This document shows, in pieces, positions 1 through 53,416 of a stretch of 64,000 nucleotides of DNA. The stretch is taken from NCBI GenBank assembly GCA_025603075.1, contig MU626275.1, forward strand, positions 62,001 to 126,000. Direction: 5' to 3'. The notes beneath the pieces are model-generated. The model saw nothing but the letters and a program-made list of their open reading frames with translations, was not told where the DNA came from and made no database searches. Made by a program: the position numbers and the translations under genes. The first letter of the stretch is position 1. Each line of letters begins with the position of its first letter. The stretch comes from Neoconidiobolus thromboides FSU 785. Lineage: Eukaryota; Entomophthoromycota; Entomophthoromycetes; Entomophthorales; Neoconidiobolaceae.

Positions 1-1218
1 GAATATATTTTATTTAAATTAGTAATAAGAACTTCATTATTGAGGGTCTGAATAAAATCCTATAATAGAAACTATTTTTTCATCTTTTAAAAAGTTAGTA
101 TTTCTAACTCTCATCTTTTATTAGTTGATATTTTTTGTTAACTTTATAGCTACGCCTCTTTACGTATAACTTTTGAAATGAATATAATGAAATAATTATG
201 AACAAAATAAATCTTATTACTGAAGCATGTTAAATTGTGAACAAATTAATTGATTTTTTTCAAACCCATAGAATATTAAAGAAGATTCATTATACCGCTA
301 TCCTATAGTGCGGAACTACAAGTATAAGAATCATAGAATCTTTTAGGAAAGTATCCTCTATTCAGTAAAAATTCAATAGGAAATTTAATTAATTTTGACT
401 AAATTTATTATATAATAGTACATTATTTTAAGTATACTTAGAGTAAAACTTCAAATAAATTTATTTGGCTTTTATATTTGATAAATAAACCTTTTTAACT
501 TGGTTTTGAATAAGAAATAATATTTGAAATTCATTTAAAATCGCTGTCAAGAATGGGCAAATCCTTATTCTTTATATAAATCCTACTCTCTTATTAAATT
601 GTAGTATCTTACTACATCACTTCATTTTATAATATCAATATCTTAAAAAAATACATTGATTCTTTTCAAAAATTAACGGATTTTTGAGATAAGAGATCAT
701 TTATAAGAACAATATTACTTTATTTTAGTTATTGATAATAGAAAGATAATGAAACACAAGCTAAATTAGGAGAGAGTATTAAAGGAACACGAAGGATTTT
801 ATTATTCCAGGTTTTACAAATAGTCACGCCTTATTATTTAAAACAAAATTTTAATAAGGGTAAAGTGAAATAACATTTAAAAACTCTGAGTATCTAGGAA
901 GAATCAAAATCATTAATAAAATAGCCTTGTTTTACAAAGAAATATGATTTAGTAATTATAATATTTTATATTAGGATCGCTTCCACAAAGTATATAATAT
1001 GGCAATAGCTTTCTATTCAAATCATTATATATGAGAGAAAGTCATTTTATAGTAAATTTTTATATAAATTAGTTTATTAAAACGGATAAAAATTATACAT
1101 TTGTTTCTGATATTAAGATTCTAAATCAGACAGTTTAATTTAGCAGAGATATTGTATAAGAATAAAAAATTATTATAAATACTGTTCAATTTCAAAGTAT
1201 TTGCTTGTTAAATGGAAT
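1..1218. other. AT-rich intergenic DNA, faint old duplicate
   Basis: No open gene is seen. Short stretches resemble the DNA downstream of the intact MFS gene: the segment around 265-310 (with the words ATTAAAGAA and ATACCGCTATCC) parallels 5903-5945. This suggests the block is the decayed left copy of a duplicated unit. Nothing else is recognisable. Confidence 0.4.
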
Positions 1219-1356
1219 TTAAGAGCTCCTAAATTTAGAGCCAAATAAGACTTTCTTTGACTATTTGTATGTAATCCATAGCTCTTAATTTTTTTTATAT
1301 TATTAGCTTTAGGTTTTATTTCAAAATCATCTTTGCTTATTGTCATTCTTTGTTAA
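1219..1356 (-). pseudogene. MFS transporter relic with internal deletion
   Basis: This minus-strand remnant matches both ends of the intact MFS gene at 6551-7936 but lacks its middle. Positions 1219-1247 match the last codons and stop (6551-6579). Positions 1239-1356 match the first ~45 codons (7808 to about 7925). The two parts join at the 9-mer AGCCAAATA, which occurs in the intact gene at 6571-6579 and 7808-7816, so a repeat-mediated deletion of about 1.24 kb explains the structure. Further substitutions and a shortened start region show it is dead. The match is read by eye. Confidence 0.75.
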
Positions 1357-1700
1357 ATATTATTTATCTTCGTATATTATAATATTTTGATTTTATTTAA
1401 TTAAACTGTATTTCCTTAGCCAGTATTATTTTAAAATATATTTTTTTAATTTTGTACCATAATTCACTGATTTATAACCATTTTTGATGTTAATAATTAG
1501 ATTTTACTATAGTCATGTTAAAATATCTCAGCTAACAAAATCGATTTTTTAAAACAAATGATAATTAACATGAATCTTTGTTTTTTTGAGTTTAATACTT
1601 TGTGATATTTAAATGTCCCTTTTTTTTGGCTGAATCTTGGTTTTTTACTTAAGCCATATGTATATGTATATTAGAATCTTTAACGTTTTAGTATTGCGAT
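1357..1700. other. Intergenic, no feature seen
   Basis: AT-rich DNA between the MFS relic and the repeat-flanked block at 1701-2201. No coding or RNA signal was recognised. Confidence 0.5.
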
Positions 1701-2201
1701 ACCTTTTGATTTATTATAATTTTCTTAAATCAGTGTCAGAAACATTGTGTTTTATTGTATAGAAAAGGAAAAATCCGGCTTAACCTGGAGAGAAGTCAAA
1801 AATAGAAAGGTCTTTCAACCTGAGGTTTAAAGCTATGTTAAAGGGTAATGAGAAGCAATTGGTTATAGATGAAGTTAAAGCCTGAGGTTTAGGAGATTTT
1901 TTGGGTTGGAGTTTAAACAGAAGGAAGGTCACTTCCTTTTTAGAAGACTCATACCAAGTGAAAGTAAGTAAGAAAGGTAGAAGGAGAGGAGAACTGGAAA
2001 ACAGTCTTTCTGTATGTACTGGTAGTAGAGCTAAAACTGTTGAACATACTAATAGAGAGAATCGCTGTAGGGAACATTGATGAGAATTGATCAAACCAAG
2101 TAAGGCCGACAAGAGAAGGTGGGATGAAGCTAAAAGTAACATCAAAGTAACAAGAAATGATATAGGCCCATAACCTTTGATTTATTATAATTTATTTAAA
2201 T
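1701..2201. repeat. GC-elevated block flanked by direct repeats
   Basis: Near-identical ~29 bp direct repeats (both containing TTTGATTTATTATAATTT) at 1701-1730 and 2173-2201 enclose about 440 bp that is visibly less AT-rich and purine-rich on the plus strand. The minus strand is open over 1780-2145 (121 codons, hydrophobic start), but no family is recognised and base composition may explain the openness. It could be an inserted element or a remnant bracketed by short terminal repeats. Confidence 0.4.
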
Positions 2202-2267
2202 TAAAATTTTACTGAGATCTAGTCAGTTTTCAAGAATTAATTTTATCAGCTAAATATTTATACTATA

Positions 2268-2367
2268 TAGGGATGTATTTTTTTGCTTGAGGATTTTACT
2301 AACAATTTTTCTACTCAAATAATGCTTAAAAAATGGAAAAGTAATGAAACCAAAAAAAACATCCCCA
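2268..2367 (+). mobile_element. Fold-back MITE copy 1
   Basis: One of 25 copies of a ~100 bp element. Ends are TAGGGATG and CATCCCCA, with TA on both sides. Forward orientation is defined here as the strand reading TTTTACTAAC before TGGAAAA. Confidence 0.85.
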
Positions 2368-2881
2368 TATAGTGATTAAATAAAGTTAAGAAAGGTAGTG
2401 GACATAACTTGTCAAAATGAAGGAATGGGTTAATAAAATTTTGAACAAGGCTTACTTTTTTCCTATCTATTTTGAACTTCCAACCATTTTCTTTATTATT
2501 ATATTTAAGCTTTAAAAATTCACTTCCTCAAATAATATATATAACTTTAGCTTGAAGTTGAAATACAATGTAGTCTAAAGACTATTTTTAACTCATGGTT
2601 AATATAACTTAGCTTTTGACTTAGGCTTTAAGATCTTTTTTGTCAATTTCATTTATGAATTCCACACTGTATCTTTATTAATTTGCAAAATGTAATTAAA
2701 AAAATCAATACAAATTACATTGTCAACATCAGTTGTGAAAAAGCTACTTATATATTTGCAATAAAATCATGGTAATAGCTCATATTTTTAATTTTTTAAT
2801 ATGCAGTGCTTTAACCCAAAGTTACTGGTTTTGTAAAACTTTTGCCAGCGATTCTAAAAACTTCTGACCAGCTTAATAAAT
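2368..2881. other. Intergenic, no feature seen
   Basis: AT-rich spacer between fold-back copy 1 and the longer inverted-repeat element at 2882-3157. Nothing recognisable. Confidence 0.5.
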
Positions 2882-3157
2882 ATACGGGAATATTTTTTAC
2901 CAATAATCCTTTTTTGCTATTTAAAATTTAGAAATAAACTAATGCAACTATTTAAGTTCGAATGTGTGCTGGTAAATGATAAATTTTATAAATGACTATT
3001 TTTTCTATTATACTAATTTAAGATTATTAACTTAATTTTTACTTTAAAATGAATAATTAGCTAGTACACATCTAAGTTTGGACAGCATACCAGTTAATTA
3101 ATTTCGAAATTTAAAGATAGCAAAAAAGAATTATTGGTAAAAAACATTCCCATGTAT
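2882..3157. mobile_element. 276 bp element with ~45 bp terminal inverted repeats
   Basis: The left end (2883-2929, containing GGGAATATTTTTTACCAATA) is repeated in inverted orientation at the right end (about 3105-3155, containing TATTGGTAAAAAACATTCCC), with few mismatches and TA at each border. The ends differ from the ~100 bp family, so this is a second non-autonomous element type. It has no coding capacity. Confidence 0.65.
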
Positions 3158-3286
3158 ATTATCCATAAATTAAGCTACTTATACTAGTTAGATAATTAAG
3201 GCTTATATTATTTAGACCGTTAAAAATAATAAAAGCAATAGTTTATATTGAAAATAGTGTACAAGGCTCTTGTACAATTGACTATA

Positions 3287-3382
3287 TGAGGATGTGTTTA
3301 AGGATTTAAGGATTTTACTATTTTTCGATACAAATAACAGTTAAAGATAGAAAAAATGATAAGTCCAAAAAAAAACACCTCA
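3287..3382 (+). mobile_element. Fold-back MITE copy 2 (diverged)
   Basis: Ends TGAGGATG and CACCTCA with TA borders. The interior keeps GATTTTACTA but is more mutated than most copies. Confidence 0.75.
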
Positions 3383-4608
3383 TATTATAGAGCAGTAAGT
3401 AGGAATTTTAAATAGCAGGGTTCTACCTTTAAATAATTATATAAAATTTTATAACATAATACTATAAATCATTGATCAGGCGTAGTGCTCTAATAGAGAT
3501 TTATTTTGTTTAAATATATTGGCTAGTTTTAATTAATAGTTAAATGGTATTTTATTACTTATACAAACTTGATAGCAATTTATTAGTTTTATATAATAGT
3601 AAAATATAAAAGCAAAAAGTTGATTTTTTAATGATGGATTTATTTATATTAATTATGTGTAACATGATAATAATGATTTGATAAGTTTTATTATATAAAA
3701 GCAATAAAAATTGACACTTAACTCAGAAGTGGTGTCAATTTTAAAATTTGTAAGAATTCAGCACTATAAGTTGTTATAAAATATTTATAATTTAAAAAAT
3801 ACAATAAAATTATAATTGTGTAATTTATATTAAAAGTTGATTATAAATAGCAAACGTTTAATATATTACTTTACCTTTAATTAGAAAAAATATATTGAGT
3901 AATAATCTAAAAAGCGTTACAAGTAAAAAATAAAAAAGTTAATTAAAAGTATAATTTGTAATTAATTTAAATTAATTTGTACAGTTTACTTTTTGCGTTT
4001 TATAATCAAAATTTGTTTTCCATTTATAAAGTTATTCTAAGTATCATATTGATTTTTTATTTCTATTATATATAAGTCACATCTTTATTTGATATCTATT
4101 ATGCTTGTAATAATATATAATATTTTGGATTACAATAATAAATCTTTGATACTTTATCTTGTATTGTAAATTTTCTTCTATTTCCTTTATAAATTAATAT
4201 ATCAGGCTCCTTTTATGGAAAATACATTATGCAAATTTTCTGTAAATAGTAAGATAATAAACACAACCTTATAACAATAAGCAGGATTTTAAGCAAAATA
4301 ATATGCTAGCAAGTTGAATCACAAATCGGTATTTAAAATAGCAAATAATTCACTCACCTTATAAAATAAATAACTAAATCTTTTGATCCGTCTTAAACCA
4401 CAAATTATAAAGAAAAATAAACTTCTCGTAAATTTTATTTTAAAAAAGATATTTTATTACTAAACTTGGTACAAAAATGATCTAAACATTATACTGGGAC
4501 TTATAGGTTAATAGGTTAAGAATTATCTTTTGGATCGAGAAGTATATAAACAAATTAAATTTACAAAGAGCTTCTTTTATCTTTTAATTAAATATTAGTA
4601 AATTTATA
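3383..4608. other. Intergenic upstream of PRXL2 copy A
   Basis: About 1.2 kb of AT-rich DNA. A few words (for example around 4278 and 4491) resemble 10497 and 10875, upstream of PRXL2 copy B, as expected if the two upstream regions are old duplicates. No coding signal. Confidence 0.4.
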
Positions 4609-5376
4609 ATGTATTGCGTTTCATGCTTTGATCGAAACTCGGATGAAGCGACTGCTAATATCTTAGAAAAAAGACAATCGAGTGAGTCCTTGGAAGAATT
4701 GATAAGAAAATATCGAGAAAAGAATAAGATAGATGCAAGTATATTTGAGGGTATAAAAGTAAGGACAGTTGATGGTAATGAGGTGTTATTAAGTGACATA
4801 TGGAAAAAGAGACCTGTGATTTTGAAAGTATTAGCTAGATTAGGTTGTACCCTTTGTAAACATGAAGCTAAAGTAATGTCTGATTTACAACCATTTTTTG
4901 AAAGACAAGGTATTGGATTAGCTGCTGTTGTATTTGAAGATGTAGATTTGAAATCATTTTTATCTTGTGGTTATTGGAGATGGGATATTTATATTGATCC
5001 AGAGAGGAATGTGTATAAAGCTGCTGGACTAACGAAGGTTACAAGAATGTATCATATGTCATGTATGGTGAATAAATATTTTATGAAGCTATTAATAGGT
5101 TTAAATCTGAATGGTATTATTAACAACGCAAAAGGAGACCTTCGTCAGCTTGGTGGGCTATTTGTTATCAATACAGATGGTCAAATAGTTTATGATTTTA
5201 GACCCAAGAAGTTTGCAACTTATCCAAGTATGAAAGAACTTTATGCTTCTGTTGGGGGGGATCCAACTGAAATTGATGAAGAACTTTCTGATGAATATAT
5301 CTACACTCAATACAAGCTAGCTGAAGATACAGTTAAAAGTAGAGCTTCTTCTCTTTCTTCAGCTTCTACGCTATGA
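4609..5376 (+). CDS. Peroxiredoxin-like 2 protein, copy A
   Basis: Intronless gene for 255 aa of the AhpC/TSA-2 (PRXL2/FAM213) thioredoxin-fold family, which is linked to thiol redox chemistry. The active-site CxxC is in GCTLCKHEA (C80, C83), preceded by the strand PVILKVLARL. Family features follow: VFEDVDLKSFLSCGYW, the DPERNVYKAAGL helix and RQLGGLFVIN. The start is unambiguous: MYC begins an N-terminal CxxC (C3, C6) also seen at the start of copies E and F. The tail is Ser-rich. No signal peptide, so probably cytosolic. The substrate cannot be inferred. It is the left-most of six paralogues in the window and looks intact. Confidence 0.9.
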   Translation: MYCVSCFDRNSDEATANILEKRQSSESLEELIRKYREKNKIDASIFEGIKVRTVDGNEVLLSDIWKKRPVILKVLARLGCTLCKHEAKVMSDLQPFFERQGIGLAAVVFEDVDLKSFLSCGYWRWDIYIDPERNVYKAAGLTKVTRMYHMSCMVNKYFMKLLIGLNLNGIINNAKGDLRQLGGLFVINTDGQIVYDFRPKKFATYPSMKELYASVGGDPTEIDEELSDEYIYTQYKLAEDTVKSRASSLSSASTL

Positions 5377-10189: not shown

Positions 10190-10261
10190 CTCTCGAGCGG
10201 GGAATTGAACCCCGGTCTCCCGCGTGACAGGCGGGGATACTCACCACTATACTACCCGAGA
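10190..10261 (-). tRNA. tRNA-Asp (GUC)
   Basis: A 72 nt cloverleaf on the minus strand: acceptor TCTCGGG pairing with CTCGAGA (one G-U), anticodon stem CCCGC/GCGGG around loop CTGTCAC (anticodon GTC), T-arm CGGGG-TTCAATT-CCCCG, and discriminator G. Internal A and B boxes (GGTTCAATTCC) are intact, there is no intron, and a T5 pol III terminator follows at 10180-10176. It is identical to the plus-strand copy at 33660. Confidence 0.95.
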
Positions 10262-10943: not shown

Positions 10944-11044
10944 TGAGGATGTTTTTTTTTGATTTCATCACTTTTTCCATCTTTCAAGCACTATTTGAAT
11001 GAAAAAATTGCTATAAAATTATTAAACCCAAATATATGTCCCCA
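10944..11044 (-). mobile_element. Fold-back MITE copy 4, at PRXL2-B promoter
   Basis: Reverse-orientation copy ending 58 bp before the likely ATG of PRXL2 copy B. Its interior is open in the same frame as that gene, so an upstream ATG at 10959 inside the element could add 48 residues. Confidence 0.85.
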
Positions 11045-11102
11045 TGTATTGGATAGTTTATTTTTTTGTCTTAAAGTGATATTGGTAAAATATGATGACA
11101 GG

Positions 11103-11729
11103 ATGTATTGCGATAATAGCATCTATAAAAAGAGTTACGATGACACTCAGTGTAAAACTTCCAGTGATTTTAGGATCAACTTTGATGCAGGTGTTTTCAA
11201 TGGAATAAAAGTAAAAACTATTAATGGAGATGAAATATTATTAAGTGATACATGGAAAAATAGGCCAGTAATTTTAAAGGTTTTAGCAAGTTTAGGATGT
11301 GCTTTATGTAAATATGATGCAAAAGTATTTTCTGAGTTACAACCTTTATTTGAGCATCACAATGTTGGATTAGTTGCAGTAGTATTTGAAGATGTAGATC
11401 TATACTCTTTTTTGAGCTCTGGATATTGGACTTGGGATATTTATCTTGACCCAGAACGAGATGTTTACAAAACTGTGGAGTTGACTAAAGTATCAAGGTT
11501 GTATCAACTAAAACTATTAACATATATCATATATAAAGGTCAAAAGCCAAACATAAGTGGTGGTTTGAGACAACTAGATGGAACGTTTGGAATTTATCCC
11601 AACAATAAAGAGGTTCGTAGCTTCAGGCCTAAAAAAGCTGCCATGCATCCTAGTTTTAAAGAAATATACTCATTAGTTGGTGATGGTCTAGAAGATACTG
11701 AAGAACAGCTTCCTTCTAAATATATATAG
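11103..11729 (+). CDS. Peroxiredoxin-like 2 protein, copy B
   Basis: PRXL2-family protein of 208 aa from the ATG at 11103. The frame stays open back to an ATG at 10959 inside a fold-back element, but homology starts at MYC, as in copy A, so 11103 is preferred. Active site GCALCKYDA (C66, C69) is intact. Bases 11200-11459 are identical to 13027-13286 of copy C, whereas both flanks differ, which points to gene conversion. Outside the tract the protein is eroded: the second N-terminal Cys is lost, YKTVEL replaces YKAA(G/K)L, GGDP is altered, and it stops at PSKYI without the Ser-rich tail. It may be functional or degenerating. Confidence 0.8.
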   Translation: MYCDNSIYKKSYDDTQCKTSSDFRINFDAGVFNGIKVKTINGDEILLSDTWKNRPVILKVLASLGCALCKYDAKVFSELQPLFEHHNVGLVAVVFEDVDLYSFLSSGYWTWDIYLDPERDVYKTVELTKVSRLYQLKLLTYIIYKGQKPNISGGLRQLDGTFGIYPNNKEVRSFRPKKAAMHPSFKEIYSLVGDGLEDTEEQLPSKYI

Positions 11730-12422
11730 TATCAAGAAAAACCAAAAAACAGCGCCACCAAACCGAATTTAATGCTATCCACGGATCAATATTGTCTATA
11801 GATTAACATATTCAATATGTTTATTGTTAATAGAGAATATTCAATAACGAAATCATAGCAAATCATTCTGTATATCATATTATACGTTCTTGACATATGC
11901 CGCTTCATATTTAATTAATTCTAATCTCACTTTTAAAGTTATATGATAAACTTAATTTCTTTTTATTGCTATTTTTTTATAAATCTAACATACAAAACTT
12001 AAATTTTGCCCAGCTCTATATACTTTACAAATTATATTATTGTAAAAAATAGGAATCCTTATTAAAAAACTTTATCATTAAAATATATATTCAAGTAAAC
12101 ATAGTGCAGTATTTAATATTCTAATATAATTCTAAAAACTATCAAGATCAAGGAAAAATTATAATTGGTGAAAAATAAGCTATGTGTTGGAGCCCAATAT
12201 TTAACTTTGCAATAATAATTTAAGTTAATTATTAGATAAATTGAATGGGGCTTCTTTAAACTGACAACAGACTCTCATCAACTATTTGAAGTATATTAGT
12301 TAATAAACTACTTAAGAGCTTAGATCTTTCAAAAACATAACGAAGTTAATAATAAATAGTCTAAAAAGCTTCGTTGTCAAATATCAAAAATGCTTTGATG
12401 TAGTGATTATAAATCGGTGATA
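11730..12422. other. Intergenic, no feature seen
   Basis: AT-rich spacer between PRXL2 copy B and fold-back copy 5. Confidence 0.5.
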
Positions 12423-12523
12423 TGGGGATGTTTTTTTTGGCTTCATTATTTTTTCGACTTAAAAAGTGCTATTTGAGTAGAATAATTGTTAGTAAAATTC
12501 TTAAATACAAAAATACATCCCCA
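12423..12523 (-). mobile_element. Fold-back MITE copy 5
   Basis: Ends TGGGGATG and ATCCCCA. Reverse orientation, TA at the left border; lies 364 bp upstream of PRXL2 copy C. Confidence 0.85.
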
Positions 12524-12791
12524 TGTTATTATATGGATTCCGATTTTAGTTCGGGATTGATTTTAAAATGAGAAGAAACTTTGAGAAATTATTTTTATTT
12601 TATCCTTGAAAATCATAAACAGGTAATATATATATTTGTATAATCATACTTAGCTCGAAAGGCTTTCATTTGAATTTATACTCCAATCATACTTCTGTCA
12701 TGATAGTTATGGTTCATTGTGATTAATCATTAATTGGAAAATAAATATTAAATACTAAATTATTAAATATCTACTATTGTTATTACTAAAC

Positions 12792-12798
12792 TGAGTCA
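12792..12798. promoter_or_regulatory. AP-1-like site TGAGTCA before PRXL2-C
   Basis: A single TGAGTCA heptamer lies 90 bp before the ATG of PRXL2 copy C. bZIP factors of the Gcn4/Yap1 class bind such sites. With one occurrence in AT-rich DNA it may be chance; I see no equivalent at the other paralogues. Confidence 0.25.
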
Positions 12799-12887
12799 AA
12801 TTAAAACTTAATGTGAGAACTCTACAACTAAAATTTATATAAAGTAAACTTTAGGATAAATTTTTCATTTTATTTTTAGTTATTAAT

Positions 12888-13652
12888 ATGTTTACCTACA
12901 GCAACCAAAGTTATTGCACGAAATGTCCCCAAAAAACAAGTATTCAATTTATGGATGATTTCTCTCCCACTCTCAACGAAAAGCGAAGGAATAGGAATGT
13001 TAGAAGGTTTGATGCAAGTATATTTGATGGAATAAAAGTAAAAACTATTAATGGAGATGAAATATTATTAAGTGATACATGGAAAAATAGGCCAGTAATT
13101 TTAAAGGTTTTAGCAAGTTTAGGATGTGCTTTATGTAAATATGATGCAAAAGTATTTTCTGAGTTACAACCTTTATTTGAGCATCACAATGTTGGATTAG
13201 TTGCAGTAGTATTTGAAGATGTAGATCTATACTCTTTTTTGAGCTCTGGATATTGGACTTGGGATATTTATCTTGACCCAGAACGAAATGTTTATAAGGC
13301 TGCTAAATTAACTAAAATATCAAGAGCATATCAGCTGAAAGCATTCTTCTCTAAACACATTTTAAAAATGGTAAGGTATATTAAGACTAAAGGGCTTAAA
13401 CTAAACATGAAAGCTGATCTTCGTCAACTTGGGGGAACGTTTTTAATTAATCCCAATAATGAAATAGTTTATAGTTTTAGACCCAAAGAGCTTGCGATAT
13501 ATCCTAGTATTAAGGAGATATACTCATTAGTTGGAGGTGACCCAGGGGAAATTGATGAACAACTCCCTGAAGAATATGTTTATACACAGAAAAAATTAGA
13601 AGAAAAATCTATCAGCTCAAGTTCCATCCTAACTGCAGGTTCTTACAATTGA
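12888..13652 (+). CDS. Peroxiredoxin-like 2 protein, copy C
   Basis: Intronless 254 aa PRXL2-family protein. Active site GCALCKYDA (C80, C83); N-terminal CxxC at C10/C13 (SYCTKC), slightly further in than in copies A, E and F; VFEDVDLYSFLSSGYW and RQLGGTFLIN follow. The C-terminus has the complete IGGDP-like stretch (VGGDPGEIDEQLPEEYVYT) and a Ser-rich tail, so this is the likely donor of the 260 bp tract shared with copy B. Fold-back elements lie 364 bp upstream and 165 bp downstream. Redox role inferred from the fold; substrate unknown. Confidence 0.9.
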   Translation: MFTYSNQSYCTKCPQKTSIQFMDDFSPTLNEKRRNRNVRRFDASIFDGIKVKTINGDEILLSDTWKNRPVILKVLASLGCALCKYDAKVFSELQPLFEHHNVGLVAVVFEDVDLYSFLSSGYWTWDIYLDPERNVYKAAKLTKISRAYQLKAFFSKHILKMVRYIKTKGLKLNMKADLRQLGGTFLINPNNEIVYSFRPKELAIYPSIKEIYSLVGGDPGEIDEQLPEEYVYTQKKLEEKSISSSSILTAGSYN

Positions 13653-13817
13653 TTTTGTTATATTGTAAATTTCCACTATTCCACTCTAAATATTAGTTAC
13701 TGCAATTTTTTCCAAAATGTTTTTCCTTTTTATTAAATGTTATTTTGTACTTATTTATGTATATAGAGTAAATTTATTTTTATAGTTATACTTTATTTCA
13801 ATAAAGTCATTAACATA

Positions 13818-13914
13818 TGGGGATGTATTTTTTTGAAGAATTTTACTAACAATCTTTCCACTCAAATAGCGCTTAAGAAATGGAAAAAGTAATGAAATCA
13901 AAAAAACATCTCCA
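13818..13914 (+). mobile_element. Fold-back MITE copy 6
   Basis: Ends TGGGGATGTATTTTTTTG and AACATCTCCA, TA borders, forward orientation. Central GAAG deletion relative to the consensus. Confidence 0.85.
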
Positions 13915-14572
13915 TATATTTAAGCTTTTAGCCTATAGTGCTTGCTTTTTATTTAATATATCATTAAATATAAATACTTATTGTTTAGTAAACTTGGTCT
14001 GCATTTTGTAATTTCCAAATAGATATAAATTCAAAGTAGGCTTATAGAAGCTTAAATTAATATGTGACTTTACCTAATAATAACATTGGCTTTAGGATTT
14101 ATTAATGTTCGCAAATAAATCTTAATAAAATCATTAAAATCATTAAAATTACAAAATAAAAGCTTAAAATGATATATGAAAATACCTAATAATAGTAATA
14201 GCTTATTTTAATTAATTAATTTATTAATGTTTGCAAACAAATTTTGTTGAAGTAATTAAACTATAGAATAAAATCTAACATTCAAAGTAGGAATAACAAA
14301 TATTATTCGTCCATAGTGAGTATTTAATACTTATATAAAACAAGATGTCAATACTATTATAGTATCTTTTATCTTTGACATTTGCTTAATAACATACTAT
14401 TTTTGATCATTTAGGTGTTTTTTAATAAATTGTACATTCCTAGATTTATTTTACATTTAATTTTAATACAACATAATGTAAGCCCTACGCAACATCTTTA
14501 CAAATAACAATAAAATAGATTAATAAAAATTCGATTATTTCAAAACTTTCAAATAAAGTTTGAGGAAACATT
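13915..14572. other. Intergenic, no feature seen
   Basis: AT-rich spacer. Two loosely repeated stretches (around 14035-14105 and 14160-14230, each with AGCTTAAA...TATG...CCTAATAATA) look like a local duplication. Confidence 0.35.
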
Positions 14573-14672
14573 TGAGAGTGTTTTTTTGACTTCATTATTT
14601 TTTCCATTTTTTAAGCGCTATTTAAGCGGAAAATTTGTTAGTAAAATTTTTAAACACAAAAATACATCCCCA
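14573..14672 (-). mobile_element. Fold-back MITE copy 7
   Basis: Ends TGAGAGTG and ATCCCCA, reverse orientation. The central palindromic words AAGCGCT and AAGCGG are kept. Confidence 0.85.
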
Positions 14673-15514
14673 TTTGGTAAATTTTATTCCAATTTTATAA
14701 CTAATTTAATTTAATTTTTATATTGAACACATTGAAATAAGCCTTAAATAAAAAAGAATATACGGAAATAAAAGATTTATATTTTCTTTTCTTTCAAAGC
14801 ATCGAACTTTTTATAAAAACTTAAAAAGTTAGTTATCACTAAGTTTTTAAAATCCATAATTTTAGTTATTTGTTTTATTTTTATTCTTATTTTTATTTTT
14901 AATTATAAGACAATTTATGAATCTTTTTTAAAATTGATAAATTATTGAGACTTATTATTTGAAAACATCTGATTCAATTTACAGTATTTTGAGTTTACTT
15001 GATTGATCTTATTTAATATAACATAATACAATATAATGCATACACTATATGTAAAATTCATAAATGTGGTGCTGTACTTACTAAAATTGAGTTTGGCTTG
15101 CTTGTTTCGTTTTTTTACTATATATTTTATACAGTCATTTAGAATAAAGCTATAATTAACATAGTTAATATATAGTTAAATATATCAATATAAAAATTAT
15201 TTGTAAGATTACATTTATAGATTAACTTAAATAAACTTGGTAACTTTAAAACGATAGACTTTGAAATACAAACTCTGATTATGGCTGAAAGGCTAAAAGA
15301 AACATTGTAGTTATAAAATAAAATTTTAAATATTGATCAACATGCTTTTTTGAGCAATATAAAAAACTTTTTATGACGTTATATTTTTATGTGAAATACA
15401 TGAGATTTAATTCAAAGTTTGAAAATATTACTACAGTAATAGATGATAGCTAAAGTTACAATAGCATTTATTATGAAAACCAGAACATGAAGAATCACAG
15501 TAAAGTAGGATTTG
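14673..15514. other. Intergenic, no feature seen
   Basis: AT-rich DNA between fold-back copy 7 and the 3' end of the PQ-loop gene. Confidence 0.5.
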
Positions 15515-18148: not shown

Positions 18149-18927
18149 TTAAGCATTTGAATAGTGATTCTTAGGTGGAACACGGGAGGTAATAGTGGCC
18201 TTTAAAGTATCAGGCCTGGTCTTGTTTTTTGAATAACCATCTTCTGATTCAATATAGTATGCTGAAAAATCCAGAATATCATCTACTATTTTAGGATTAT
18301 CTTGATTAAGTTTGGCAAATTGATAAGCAAACTTGGTATCAGGGCCGTTTAAAGCAATAGCATTACCTTGTTCACAAACTGAGAGACAACGAGTAGGTCT
18401 TATCTCAAATTTTTTACGGAATTTCCTTGTTGGACTATTAGGTTTGCCGTGGGCTTTAACCAATTTATGATACAATATTTCTCCACTTTTAAGTTTAACT
18501 CCTTCTTTTTCTTTATCTGCTACTAATTCTTCCATGTCTTGATCTATGATTTTATTTTCAGGGTGTTCTAATTTACAATCTATTAAACTTCCGCAATTCG
18601 TTTCTTTGTAAGTGCATCTCATACACACAAATAAAACATGTCTATCCTTTAATTCTTTTTCTAATTCATTCTCTCTTATTTCTTCTTCTTTACTATCTTC
18701 ATCTTTTCCAATTATTATATCTGGTTTTCCATTCCCTTTTTCAATTTCCTAAAATCGAATGTTATAAAACTAAATATGAAATAATAAAATCTTACCTTTG
18801 GTTTAATTGAGTAAGTTTTTCTAAATTCCCTAATCTTTAAATCCAAAATAATTGTAGCGCCAATAGCAAATCCACCAAAAATAATAGCAGGTAGAAAGTT
18901 GGTTATTGATATATCCTTCAAAGCCAT
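18149..18927 (-). CDS. Membrane-anchored DUF1636 metal-binding-type protein
   Basis: Two exons (18796-18927 and 18149-18748, 47 nt intron GTAAG...TTTTAG) give 243 aa. Residues 10-30 form one membrane segment (NFLPAIIFGGFAIGATIILD). After a charged linker comes a domain resembling DUF1636: VLFVCMRCTYKE (C86, C89, then C96, C102), RPTRCLSVCEQGNAIAL (C165, C169), a YYIESEDGYS stretch and a final ITSRVPP. In bacteria this family is a predicted 2Fe-2S/metal-binding protein often found near cobalamin genes. The fusion to a membrane anchor suggests an organelle-membrane protein, perhaps mitochondrial, but that is inference. Function unknown. Confidence 0.7.
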
Positions 18928-30373: not shown

Positions 30374-31120
30374 CTATAGGGAGTAATTTGATGACGAAGG
30401 TGAACTAATATTATATTTTACATTATATATCAATTCATCTATTTCATCCATATCTGCATTTAGTAAATTAAGTATATATTTAATATCTGGGAATGGGGAT
30501 TGTTTTGAGGGTTTAAAAGAGTATAATATTTCACTATTTGAATTGATTAAATAAGTTTCACCAGAATAAGTATCTTGTTTAGTATGACTATGACTTAATA
30601 AGGACTTAATATTGGAATATTTAAAAAATTGATTGAATTTGGGTAATTTTGTAGAGTTTAATATAGATTCGGATGCTTTAAATACTTTACTTGTAGGATC
30701 TAGATATAAGTCCCATTTCCAATAACCTGAACTTAAAAAAGTAGTTAAATCTAAATCTTTTAATACTACAACTATCATCTTTATATTATTTTTTTCAAAA
30801 GAAGCTTGAAATTCGGATAACATTTGGGCTTCATGATGAGCTAATTTACAATCTAAGTGTGGCAATACCTTTAATATTACTGAATTGTATTTCCATAAAT
30901 CACTAAGATAAATTTCTTCTCCATCTAATTTTTTGATTATAATCCCATTAAACATCTTTGCGTTATCTTTGACAATACCACTATTATTAGATGAGCTACT
31001 TAACAAGGAAGAGCTAATATTTATTAGATTGGACTCATAATATACATCTCGTTTTGACTTAGAAATGTCATGTAACTGTGGATTAATTTGACAATAAATT
31101 TTATTTCGAGTAGTATTCAT
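30374..31120 (-). CDS. Peroxiredoxin-like 2 protein, copy D (altered active site)
   Basis: Intronless 248 aa PRXL2-family protein and the most diverged of the six. Fold markers remain (SVILKVLPHL, VVVLKDLDLTTFLSSGYWKWDLYLDP, YLINSNSEILYSF, Ser-rich tail), but the active-site CxxC reads DCKLAHHEA: C91 is kept and the second Cys is Ala94. The N-terminal CxxC is also lost (MNTTRNKIYC). RQLGG is replaced by YSGET, and VKYNISS replaces the EEY(V/I)YT(R/Q)(E/K)(R/K)L end. It may work as a one-Cys enzyme, have a new non-redox role, or be drifting. It is followed closely by copy E on the same strand (366 bp). Confidence 0.85.
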   Translation of the reverse strand: MNTTRNKIYCQINPQLHDISKSKRDVYYESNLINISSSLLSSSSNNSGIVKDNAKMFNGIIIKKLDGEEIYLSDLWKYNSVILKVLPHLDCKLAHHEAQMLSEFQASFEKNNIKMIVVVLKDLDLTTFLSSGYWKWDLYLDPTSKVFKASESILNSTKLPKFNQFFKYSNIKSLLSHSHTKQDTYSGETYLINSNSEILYSFKPSKQSPFPDIKYILNLLNADMDEIDELIYNVKYNISSPSSSNYSL

Positions 31121-31486: not shown

Positions 31487-32227
31487 TTAAAAGGTACGTG
31501 AGCTTAATCTAGAACTTGAACTAAAGCTTTCTTCTTCGTTTAACCTTTCCCTTGTATAGACATATTCTTCAGGTGTGTCATCATGAATTTCATCTGGATC
31601 ACCACCAATCAACCCATAAATTTCTTTAATACTTGGAAATTGTCCAAATTTTTTTGCTTTAAAACTATAAATTATTTCACCACGTGGATTGATTACAAAA
31701 GTGCCACCAAGTTGACGAATACTACCTTTTTGAATGGTATTAGGGATCCCTTTATCTCTTAAAAATCCCACTAAAGATTTTAAAATCCTTTTTCTCAATA
31801 CATAAAATATATAAGATAATGATACTTTATGTAAGCCAGCAGCTTTATATACTTTTCGTTCATAATCCATATAAATATCCCAGTTCCAATAACCAGAAGT
31901 TATAAAAACACTTGAATCAACATCTTCATGTGTAATAGCAACTAAACCAACATTATGTTTTTCAAATAAGGGTTGCATCTCGGATAGCATTTTAGCTTCT
32001 TGTCTACATAAACAACATCCCAACCTTCTTAATACTTTAACTATCACTGTTCTTTCTTTCCATAACTCTTTGACTTTAATATCGTTACCAAATCGATCTT
32101 TAACTACAATATCTTCAATCACTTTGGATAATTTACCATTTAATGTATAATGATGATTCAAAAATGGATCTTCCTTTCTATCACTGTTTATTGAGGTTTC
32201 ATAATGCTCACAAGAAGTACACTGCAT
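31487..32227 (-). CDS. Peroxiredoxin-like 2 protein, copy E
   Basis: Intronless 246 aa PRXL2-family protein starting MQCTSC (N-terminal CxxC, C3/C6). Active site LGCCLCRQEAKML (C71, C72, C74), ITHEDVDSSVFITSGYW, DYERKVYKAAGLHKVS, RQLGGTFVIN and IGGDPDEI are all present, with the Ser-rich tail. It resembles copy F most, sharing the extra Cys in GCCLC and AKKFGQFPS. Probably a functional cytosolic thiol redox protein; substrate unknown. Confidence 0.9.
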   Translation of the reverse strand: MQCTSCEHYETSINSDRKEDPFLNHHYTLNGKLSKVIEDIVVKDRFGNDIKVKELWKERTVIVKVLRRLGCCLCRQEAKMLSEMQPLFEKHNVGLVAITHEDVDSSVFITSGYWNWDIYMDYERKVYKAAGLHKVSLSYIFYVLRKRILKSLVGFLRDKGIPNTIQKGSIRQLGGTFVINPRGEIIYSFKAKKFGQFPSIKEIYGLIGGDPDEIHDDTPEEYVYTRERLNEEESFSSSSRLSSRTF

Positions 32228-33659: not shown

Positions 33660-33731
33660 TCTCGGGTAGTATAGTGGTGAGTATCCCCGCCTGTCACGCG
33701 GGAGACCGGGGTTCAATTCCCCGCTCGAGAG
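33660..33731 (+). tRNA. tRNA-Asp (GUC)
   Basis: 72 nt, identical in all positions to the minus-strand gene at 10190-10261: anticodon GTC in loop CTGTCAC, intact A and B boxes, no intron, T5 terminator at 33737-33741. The flanks of the two genes are not alike beyond a few bases. A fold-back element starts 48 bp downstream. Confidence 0.95.
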
Positions 33732-34741: not shown

Positions 34742-35515
34742 TTAAGATGTATCACCAGATAAAATGGAACTTGAGCTAATGCTTGAATCGCCGCTCAATC
34801 TTTTTCTAGTGTAAATATATTCTTCAAGGAAGTCTTCATTGATCTCATCAGGGTTACCGCCGATCACCTTATAAATTTCTTTAACACTTGGGAATTGCCC
34901 AAATTTTTTTGCTCTAAAACTATAAAGGATCTCTCCATTAAGGTTTATTACAAAAGTACCACCAAGTTGTCTAAGATCGCCTCCTTTAATGCTATTAGTC
35001 ATCCCTTTATCTCTTAAATAAGCAAATAATTTTTTAAATGATCTTGTGGCTAATGCTGATAATAAATAAAATACAGACACTTTGTTTAACCCAGCAGCCT
35101 TATACACATTCTTTTCTGGATCAAGATAAATATCCCAATCCCAATATCCCGATTCTAAAAACGCCTCTAAATCAATATCTTCAAAAGCAATTGCCGCCAT
35201 TGTAACATTATGCTTATCAAAAAGTGGTTTCATATCCGATAACATTTTAGCTTCTTGTTTACATAAACAGCATCCTAGCTGCCTCAGTACTTTAATAACA
35301 ACTGTCTTTTCCTTCCATAACTCATTTACTGGGACCTTTTCACCAAACCTATTTTTTACTAGAATATTATCAAACATTGTGATGCCAATGTTTCCATTAA
35401 TAGTCGATCTGCTAGAATTTGAACCACTATAGATACCCTTTTCCAAATCAAAATGGGTACTGGACAGATAGCTTTCTAATCCAGAATCATCAAATCTGCA
35501 GGCTTCACAGTTCAT
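34742..35515 (-). CDS. Peroxiredoxin-like 2 protein, copy F
   Basis: Intronless 257 aa PRXL2-family protein starting MNCEAC (N-terminal CxxC, C3/C6). Active site LGCCLCKQEAKML (C82, C83, C85); AFEDIDLEAFLESGYWDWDIYLDPEKNVYKAAGL, RQLGGTFVIN, a GGNPDEI stretch and a Ser-rich tail follow. Nearest to copy E. All family landmarks are kept, so it is probably functional. Confidence 0.9.
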   Translation of the reverse strand: MNCEACRFDDSGLESYLSSTHFDLEKGIYSGSNSSRSTINGNIGITMFDNILVKNRFGEKVPVNELWKEKTVVIKVLRQLGCCLCKQEAKMLSDMKPLFDKHNVTMAAIAFEDIDLEAFLESGYWDWDIYLDPEKNVYKAAGLNKVSVFYLLSALATRSFKKLFAYLRDKGMTNSIKGGDLRQLGGTFVINLNGEILYSFRAKKFGQFPSVKEIYKVIGGNPDEINEDFLEEYIYTRKRLSGDSSISSSSILSGDTS

Positions 35516-47561: not shown

Positions 47562-48349
47562 TGTTAAGATTTTGGAAATTTAATAGTTTTAAACCAATGA
47601 TTTTAATAGACTTTTTATAGACTTATAATTTTCTTAAAATTATGAAAAAAACTAAGCAACATTGAACAATAAATTATAGTAGACTATCGGTTGTATTTCA
47701 GCTCAATATAGCAAATGTATGCATATAGATTAAGCCTATTGAATCCACTACTTATCATATAGCGTTGAGTTTATTTTTTGTATTTGTATTATATTTTCAA
47801 AATTTAATTCAAAAATTCTCAAATCATCAATCAGCCAATAATATTTAAAGTAATTTTCGAAATAGTATTTCTCCCACAACTTTAAAAATCTCCACACCTA
47901 CGGCAATCTATAAAAACAATTATGTACTCCTCGAATTCTTTAGTCCTTTCCTTTATTCAGTTTTCAAACGAATAGATCCCTCGCCTTTTACTAGAGATCT
48001 CCGTGGATGAAGGAACTTTAAAGGACTTTGCCAATCTTTGGAAACCCTTTGGGTATAATCCTAATAATAATTTAAAAATTCTAAAAAAGTAGCAAAGGTC
48101 TATTATTTGACGATGCTAATGTTCTCATATTAAAACATGAGGGAAAGTTGGCTTATCAGAATAGTATTACTTTGAAAGCATCCATTTTTAATTAGAAAGA
48201 TTCATGATTAACTTAACTTTTAATGAATAAAAGTTCGATTTTCCAATAGAGTATGTATTAAGTAAACAACTTTTAACAATTGCAGGATTTGATGAAAAGG
48301 ACTAATGAATTAAGACAAAAATTGAGATGTTAATTTGTATTCTAGTAAA
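47562..48349. other. Intergenic with a weak coding-like stretch
   Basis: Between 47922 and 48090 the plus strand is less AT-rich and reads MYSSNSLVLSF, then after a stop IPRLLLEISVDEGTLKDF and ANLWKPFGYNPN. This may be a gene fragment; no family is recognised. Confidence 0.3.
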
Positions 48350-48449
48350 TGGGGATGTATTTTTATGTTTAAGAATTTTACTAACAAATTTTCCACTTAA
48401 ATAGCGCTTAAAAAATGGAAAAAATAATGAAGTCAAAAAAACACTCCCA
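48350..48449 (+). mobile_element. Fold-back MITE copy 19
   Basis: Ends TGGGGATG and ACTCCCA, forward orientation; pairs with copy 20, 137 bp away in inverted orientation. Confidence 0.85.
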
Positions 48450-48586
48450 AATGTTTTTATTTTAAAAGCTATTATAAAATAGTTGATTAACTTCAAAGTA
48501 AAATAATTTGAATATAAGTACATCAAGGTTTAGATTATTATGAATCACATTTCATCATAAGTTATAAAAACGGTATAAGAAATACA

Positions 48587-51793: not shown

Positions 51794-53278
51794 TCAATTA
51801 ATCTTCTTCACACTATCTGTTATTAACAAAGTCTCCGGTTTAAAAATATTTCCTTTAAACATACAATTATTCTCACATGGAGTTATATAATTTCTTACAT
51901 GTTGAAAGTAATTGTTACAATGTTTAGCATCTCCAACTTTATTTTGAACTTTTAATATATTTTTAATAACATCTGAATTTTCACAATGTGGTAATTTATT
52001 CACCCCTACTTTTAATTCATTAAAAAACAATTCGATTGGGTTTAAGAATACAGAATATTCAGGTAAAATTAATATAAATGAATTGGAGTATCTAATGGCT
52101 TCTTTTAGTTCATTAGGGATAACATGAGGATTTGTGCTATTGAATACATACACAATTTGTTTATGTCTATTTTTGGAATATAAATCCATTATAAATTTAT
52201 TGAAATCCTCTTGATTATTGGTATTCGTTTTTTTCTTATCAATTATTTTAAATGTTTCAATTTGAAATTGAGATATAGCTCCAATATAATTAATACTTTT
52301 AGGTGTTGATTCTGGTGTTAATATAATTCTTTGTCCTTCAGATGCAAACTCACCTTGATTAACAGCATGACGATTGAAATAGATTTCATCAATGTAAATA
52401 AATTCACATGTCATTAATATTTTATATTCTTCAATATATTGTTTTCTTTTTAATATTATATCTTTATCATTCCATCTATTTCGAATTTGTATTTTTTGTT
52501 TATATGTAATATCCAAATTATTTTTAAGTCGACTTATTGTGGATTTAGATATATCAATTTGTTTTGTTAACAAGAAATCTCTTACTTGTAATAATGTAGT
52601 TTCATGATTTCTCGATATATAATCATAGATAAAATCATTTGTTTCTTCATTGACTTTTTTGTTATTCCCATTTTTTCTTAAATCATCAATACCAATATTA
52701 TTGGCTATCTTCTTTTTTTTCCTACAAATTCTTGTATGAAATGTATTATAACTTAAACCTAATATTTCAGCACCCGTTTTGATTGGTATTTTTCCATCTA
52801 AAACACCATTAATGATCATATCATCATTACTTTTTTTAATTAATTTATCTTCACTTGAACATTCTTTCTTTTTACGTTTTAATAATTTCACTTTTTTTGA
52901 ACCAAATAAACTATTGAATTCAACCATTTGTTTATTAATGTCAATTATCATTTTTTTTAATTTATTATATCTTTCTTTGAGTTCTGAATTGGCACTAATT
53001 AACTTTAATGTTTCTGTTTTGTTAAGAACATCTTTACTAATTTCGTCATATATCTTTAAATCTCCAATCTCTACTTTATTAAATACATAGAATTCATTAT
53101 TCATATTATTCTGCTCGTTACTTACATTATCATATTGGCTCCTTTCAAAAATATCATCATTCATTATAATTTGATTAATACTATTGATAGATATATTATT
53201 ACCTCCCATTATATATTTTGCAAAAGAAACAAAGAAATAAAGAATAAAATTGAAATTATTTTTATACATTTGAATCAA
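51794..53278 (-). CDS. IS630/Tc1-like DDE transposase, altered triad
   Basis: Intact intronless frame of 494 codons; later Met (24 or 39) may be the real start. A helix-turn-helix (KTGAEILGLSYNTFHTR, ~168-182) and a second one (LQVRDFLLTKQIDISKSTIS) precede a DDE_3 domain: FIYIDEIYF (D297), then VYVFNSTNPH where the family has a DN..H motif, so the second Asp is Asn380, then LPEYSVFLNPIELFFNELK (E416). The spacing suits DD35E enzymes. With D2 changed, catalysis is doubtful although the frame is open. Inverted copies of the ~100 bp fold-back element lie on both sides (51225 and 53417). Confidence 0.85.
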   Translation of the reverse strand: MIQMYKNNFNFILYFFVSFAKYIMGGNNISINSINQIIMNDDIFERSQYDNVSNEQNNMNNEFYVFNKVEIGDLKIYDEISKDVLNKTETLKLISANSELKERYNKLKKMIIDINKQMVEFNSLFGSKKVKLLKRKKKECSSEDKLIKKSNDDMIINGVLDGKIPIKTGAEILGLSYNTFHTRICRKKKKIANNIGIDDLRKNGNNKKVNEETNDFIYDYISRNHETTLLQVRDFLLTKQIDISKSTISRLKNNLDITYKQKIQIRNRWNDKDIILKRKQYIEEYKILMTCEFIYIDEIYFNRHAVNQGEFASEGQRIILTPESTPKSINYIGAISQFQIETFKIIDKKKTNTNNQEDFNKFIMDLYSKNRHKQIVYVFNSTNPHVIPNELKEAIRYSNSFILILPEYSVFLNPIELFFNELKVGVNKLPHCENSDVIKNILKVQNKVGDAKHCNNYFQHVRNYITPCENNCMFKGNIFKPETLLITDSVKKIN

Positions 53279-53416
53279 TAAAAGTATTAAATTAGGTTAC
53301 GCAATCATTGCATTTAAATGAAACGAATCAGTAATTAAAATTATCATTTACATTTACTAAAAAATACTAAATTCATGAAATTATTATAGGTTTAAATAAA
53401 ACAAAAACTATTAATA

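Follow-up and report, generated by a model that had tools for sequence, protein, structure and literature searches.

Genes and repeats of the PRXL2-like cluster

The window, a stretch of 64,000 nucleotides of DNA from the entomophthoralean fungus Neoconidiobolus thromboides FSU 785 that forms part of contig C18, holds six PRXL2-like genes (Table 1), the number given by a first-pass annotation of the sequence. All six proteins score above the 27-bit cut-off of PF13911 (AhpC-TSA_2), at 28.8 to 72.6 bits. Two of the genes, A and B, lie 1.8 kb apart; the others are named by their contig position in kb. Over the whole of C18 there are ten complete PRXL2-like frames (p35, p42, p56, p61, p66, A, B, p92, p93, and p96), of which p61, at 61.1k, lies immediately to the left of the window, and the start of the contig cuts one further frame (p3). 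Another six complete frames are found on C35 (three) and on C156, C167, and C183 (one each). The search of the genome for PRXL2 returned 146 matches, and 17 open frames were used. Matches on C57 and C24 were excluded as short or apparently intron-split. Other matches were set aside because they fell on the first 40-70 residues of the query, which are transposon-like, as the query ran from stop to stop. Plasmid records gave no match to B, which is uninformative.

The first 443 bp of C18 are exactly the last 443 bp of C183. This unmerged join lies inside a PRXL2-like gene, and the exact overlap of the ends indicates that C183 probably adjoins C18. The cut gene p3 is identical to the C183 gene over 402 bp across this overlap and was for that reason excluded before pairs of genes were counted.

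Table 1. Positions of genes, shared tracts, and repeats in the window
Feature	Position	Strand	Basis
Gene A, PRXL2-like, 208 aa; rapid evolution outside the tract, no C-terminal tail, 9-residue gap	11103..11729	+	ORF; PF13911 E 3.2e-8; alignment; P0002 is the identical protein
Gene B, PRXL2-like, 254 aa	12888..13652	+	ORF; PF13911 E 1.6e-19; prostamide/PGF synthase 9us9 matched in the PDB, E 6.7e-16
Tract within gene A, the probable recipient of a conversion; coding, with the CxxC	11200..11459	+	260/260 identical to 13027-13286; dS 0 vs 1.2-2.6 outside
Same tract in gene B (probable donor)	13027..13286	+	Identity, assembly search, dS; direction from rate comparison
p66, paralogue with near-identical tract in common with p61	4609..5376	+	Sequence comparison
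Tract of p66 in common with p61, runs of 167 and 196 exact, 4 mismatches in 386	4684..5069	+	Run comparison
p92, degenerate CxxC (CKLA), no long run in common with other copies	30374..31120	-	PF13911 match; run comparison
p93, paired with p96 as a control; longest run 18, no tract	31487..32227	-	PF13911 match; shuffle test
p96, control pair with p93	34742..35515	-	PF13911 match; shuffle test
MITE-like copies	10955-11048, 12433-12526, 13798-13923, 14582-14675, 48347-48456		Repeat search
Open 500-aa frame	51797-53296	-	DDE_3 / IS630-like transposase match (NCBIfam match below its cut-off)
DUF1636 protein	18152-18748	-	PF07845, E 7e-18
tRNA-Asp(GTC)	10190-10261	-	Within inverted repeat, 98% alike over 81 bp
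tRNA-Asp(GTC)	33660-33731	+	Within inverted repeat, 98% alike over 81 bp

By sequence and predicted fold, the cluster genes are PRXL2-like (peroxiredoxin-like 2; AhpC-TSA_2) and encode a thioredoxin fold with a CxxC pair, with a putative prostamide/PGF synthase or peroxidase activity. The human prostamide/prostaglandin F synthase, whose gene name we take to be PRXL2B, was the only PDB molecule matched by the B sequence at E ≤ 1 (phmmer E 6.7e-16). It also gave the first three Foldseek matches of the AlphaFold model of B, which was built from 11 sequences and has a mean pLDDT of 69, with ten-residue blocks at 78-95 across the tract described below. The human enzyme (9us9/9usa) is thus the best match in both sequence and fold, and it shares the thioredoxin fold and the CxxC pair, named as C44 and C47 in the title of 9usa. 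It differs in that identity is only ~20-23% and in that the cluster proteins carry long variable N-termini and Ser-rich C-termini. The CxxC motif is present in A and B; its second cysteine is gone in p92 and c35_34. In p92, whose frame is open, 10 of the 33 conserved core residues are changed, a conserved residue being one kept in at least nine of ten reference proteins, and p92 is possibly a non-redox paralogue.

MITE-like elements of ~100 nt, starting with GGGGATG and ending with CATCCCC, occur between window positions 2251 and 56822, with 9, 14, and 9 members in three overlapping repeat sets. A copy used as a query against the genome gave at least 46 matches, with the best 40 of 3,179 first-look candidates scored. 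One copy ends ~55 bp upstream of the start codon of gene A. No long terminal inverted repeat pair was found in a search for one bracketing the open transposase-like frame. DUF1636 is mainly bacterial, so horizontal transfer of the gene for the DUF1636 protein is possible. In Entomophthora muscae two PRXL2-like proteins, P0006 and P0007, have near-adjacent locus numbers (DSO57_1015959 and DSO57_1015957), and the family may therefore be tandemly duplicated in this second entomophthoralean fungus also. The protein comparisons give no evidence of conversion in that species, as they show an ordinary conservation pattern both for P0006/P0007 (79% identity in the core, 59% right, 53% left) and for P0006/P0008 (50%, 38%, and 18%).

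Identical and near-identical tracts shared between paralogues

Genes A and B share a tract of 260 bp that is identical at 260/260 bases and is bounded by mismatches at 11199/13026 and 11460/13287. It lies within the coding sequence of each gene, read in one and the same frame, and encodes the CxxC site GCALCKYDA. The exact tract, the change of sequence directly at its edges, and its coverage of the active site had all been read from the letters by the first-pass annotation, and all three hold. In B the encoded residues are 48-133, which make up the thioredoxin fold's first half and include C80 and C83. A repeat search (seed 20, minimum length 60) assigned the two to family D4, where they stand at 96% across 300 nt and a third member, 4729-5028, at 73%. 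When the whole assembly (23.1 Mb, 392 contigs) was searched with the tract, the A and B sites were returned with six weaker matches at 71-77%; no third copy was found, the next best match being 77%.

Synonymous divergence between A and B is 0 over the 86 codons of the tract, ~1.2 over the 89 codons to its right, and 2.6 over the 33 codons to its left, the last two values being near saturation and to be read simply as large. Identity outside the tract is 68% on the right and 50% on the left. Comparison of synonymous divergence inside and outside the tract was the check proposed for the earlier claim of recent conversion; it reveals a collapse inside only, with divergence far from uniform along the pair. 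Shuffling the 134 differences between A and B among 624 aligned coding sites never gave a run longer than 58 in 10,000 trials. The probability of zero synonymous differences over 53.7 synonymous sites is ~4e-22 at the flanking pS of 0.6. Since none of the 10,000 shuffles reached 260 and this probability is so small, chance identity of the tract is excluded. With 0 differences in 260 sites, divergence since the event is at most ~1.1% per site (95%), or ~5% on synonymous sites.

The A/B tract is one of several. The 16 complete genes form 120 pairs, and the length of the longest exact run per pair is bimodal, with five pairs at 113-386 bp (p56/p61 386, A/B 260, p35/p42 247, p61/p66 196, p56/p66 113) and the other 115 at 30 bp or less. 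Four pairs in one cluster of roughly 60 kb (A/B, p35/p42, p61/p66, and p56/p61) bear tracts of 247-526 bp, each at least 247 bp when up to four mismatches are allowed; the internal mismatches number 0, 0, 4, and 1, and the borders differ between pairs. Over the columns of the A/B tract, dS is 0.06 for p35/p42 (0.75 right, 0.91 left) and 0.03 for p61/p66 (0.64 right, 0.55 left). For p56/p61, whose own tract sits further right, it is 0.22 over the same columns, 0.10 right, and 1.45 left. Noncoding sequence beside p35/p42 and p61/p66 still aligns, at ~40-82% per 50-column block with values dropping away from the gene, so the tracts of these pairs, at 99-100%, stand out from their surroundings.

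In shuffle tests, the observed run was reached in 0 of 10,000 shuffles for each of the five tract pairs, and in 377 to 3,668 of 10,000 for six control pairs (p93/p96, c35_129/c35_131, p66/B, p61/B, p66/p35, and p93/p35). Neither p93/p96, which are neighbors, nor c35_129/c35_131 on C35 has a tract. Gene p61 combines p66-like and p56-like pieces as a mosaic: it is identical to p66 at 133/133 bases of CDS 79-211 and to p56 at 273/273 bases of CDS 465-737, and its ends have 0.53-0.74 identity to both. The CxxC motif lies inside all four tracts, with a joint probability of 0.127 under uniform random placement within genes. Targeting of the active site by conversion was rejected on this basis, as coverage by four tracts is no more than chance.

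Probable gene conversion and its alternatives

The A/B tract very probably records a recent short-tract ectopic gene conversion between old tandem duplicates, as the first-pass annotation had proposed; the contrast in synonymous divergence, the sharp borders, and the recurrence of such tracts in sister pairs together support that proposal strongly. The signature of conversion is present in that near-identity is confined to the tract, diverged homologous flanks lie on both sides, synonymous divergence collapses inside only, and the differences are distributed non-randomly. A and B would be old tandem duplicates of one PRXL2-like gene. Most likely, A suffered a break or lesion and was repaired by homologous recombination with B, 1.8 kb away, as the template. 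Repair would have copied 260 bp of coding sequence non-reciprocally into A and left the flanks unexchanged, for example by synthesis-dependent strand annealing, too recently for a single substitution to have followed. The core may have been the part transferred because it still resembled its counterpart closely enough for pairing, and a process of the same kind would have produced the tracts in p35/p42, p61/p66, and p56/p61.

The mechanism is already known and the instance is new. In PMC3924818, interlocus conversion tracts in yeast are given as ~50 to several hundred bp, with which the tract lengths in this cluster agree, and the efficient pairing segment in experiments as ~200 bp. The same paper places interlocus conversion mainly at roughly 80% identity or more, with a low rate below that. 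The A/B case resembles the conversion between duplicated genes described there in its short tract, unchanged flanks, physical closeness, and ~200 bp or more of identity. It differs in that the A/B flanks are far below 80% and in that four tract-bearing pairs occur in a single cluster. Flanks of 50-68% identity are awkward for conversion. Either the core was more alike beforehand, kept similar by earlier conversions, or conversion occurred here across a larger divergence, an improbable event. PMC3728101 reports a similar mosaic in the GOT1 paralogues of the copepod Tigriopus californicus, duplicated enzyme genes with some regions much diverged and others little; conversion there fails to keep every copy functional in all populations. 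Several populations were compared in that study and one assembly here. No description of this PRXL2 cluster appears in the sections consulted of PMC3924818, PMC7466969, and PMC3728101, and the open-access search results inspected included no study of interlocus conversion in this fungal lineage. Two candidate causes were considered. That mismatch repair has been lost, allowing conversion between diverged copies, is not supported: MutS_V pieces occur on four contigs and DNA_mis_repair (MutL-type) pieces on two, all from predicted mismatch-repair genes. Nor is it favored that conversion was set off when the small transposon-like element lying upstream of A was excised, as the element is still present and the tract starts ~150 bp away.

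The low identity of the flanks is what a longer-running form of conversion would explain. In this variant, which is compatible with a last conversion, the core has been converted repeatedly since duplication while the flanks escaped, and the 260 bp are the remnant of a longer homogenized zone kept pairable by its own identity. It accounts for recombination despite 50-68% identity outside, and it suits both the four tract-bearing pairs in one cluster and a pairing segment of the length cited above from PMC3924818. An eroding zone is expected to leave a gradient at its borders, and the left borders are somewhat softer in three pairs, where identity over the 30 bases next to the tract and over the rest of the left side is 0.60 and 0.45 (A/B), 0.80 and 0.74 (p35/p42), and 0.83 and 0.72 (p56/p61). 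The right borders are without one (0.70 vs 0.68 for A/B, 0.57 vs 0.78 for p35/p42, 0.63 vs 0.80 for p61/p66), and so is the left border of p61/p66 (0.53 vs 0.71). These abrupt borders favor a discrete last event, and we regard long-running concerted evolution as possible, though on balance unlikely.

The remaining explanations do without conversion. An assembler or gap filler might have put the core of B into A, as an exact repeat of 260 bp is longer than short reads usually are, and the unmerged overlap between C18 and C183, which lies inside a family member and counts against the conversion reading, shows the assembly to be imperfect there. Against this, 115 of the 120 pairs have no exact run above 30 bp, so that k-mer assembly would have little chance of merging two cores that did not really share an identical stretch. 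The two joins, moreover, show no seam and keep both register and reading frame; tracts occur in four pairs, with differing borders and internal mismatches; and the only other near-exact repeats in the window, under the repeat-search settings given above, are the tRNA pair and the transposon-like family. An artefact is accordingly improbable. Purifying selection directly at the DNA or RNA level, through an overlapping gene, a regulatory RNA, or extreme codon constraint, would act where the protein family is best conserved, which is the core. Yet the tract is only 71-77% identical to other copies, its dS against p66, p61, p35, and p96 is 1.1-1.3, near saturation, and no Rfam family was found at it. 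Because zero dS is specific to A/B and no other copy exceeds 77% in the assembly search, such constraint is excluded as the main cause, and we give it a very small probability. The least credible account is that the whole gene was duplicated recently and its ends then diverged very fast. The right half of A has evolved about three times faster than that of B, as this account would need, but synonymous sites are near saturation outside the tract and unchanged inside it. No single date fits both dS values, which refutes it.

Probable direction of transfer and the state of gene A

Within the conversion reading, B was probably the donor and A the recipient, as the tract evolves at the pace of B, unlike that of A. 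In one rate comparison on an eight-taxon tree with fixed topology, the tip-to-rest branch ratio was 0.053 for the tract (bootstrap 0.025-0.091), 0.089 for the right half of B (0.049-0.138), and 0.204 for the right half of A (0.118-0.314); the tract was closer to B than to A in 100/100 bootstraps. Right-half branch lengths in a one-omega fit were 5.6 for A and 1.6 for B. Of 30 conserved residues in the right half, 13 are changed in A and 5 in B; in the tract the same 2 of 33 are changed in both. This contrast proves nothing alone, since c183, which has no long run in common with other copies, also combines a good core (3/33 departures) with a poor right half (10/30).

Gene A contains no stop, and it lacks the C-terminal tail of the family and several conserved glycines. 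Its fitted omega is ~0.1, and freeing it gained 0.02 in lnL in both site sets, a weak test with synonymous sites near saturation. With the omega of B free, the right-half fit ran to the omega bound with a lnL gain of 1.1. In neutral simulations over the aligned codons of B outside the tract, no stop had arisen after 34, 67, and 100 substitutions in 11.5%, 2.8%, and 0.7% of runs. We therefore did not retain A as a pseudogene, with no stop and no raised omega, although the codon-model test is weak; A is likely under constraint. The first-pass annotation had suggested that an eroded copy, which it called B and which may correspond to gene A here, was perhaps resupplied with its catalytic core. 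If the two correspond, erosion of the recipient outside the tract has moderate support from the departures in the right half and from the rate of the tract. The purpose implied by resupply is unproven, as coverage of the active site by four tracts is within chance (about 0.13).

A wider role for these exchanges is a speculation to which we give little weight. In a core-sharing family, recurrent short-tract conversion, at a divergence normally too great for it, would re-issue the redox core between copies and leave the N- and C-terminal parts free to diversify; if so, new combinations of ends would be tried on a working core. Giving each paralogue one gene tree is a mistake in this cluster, where core and ends differ in history, and attempts to date copies, call orthologues, or test for selection with whole genes are consequently misled. 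With four tract-bearing pairs and adjacent controls, the cluster offers a compact natural case for asking how diverged genes can be and still convert.
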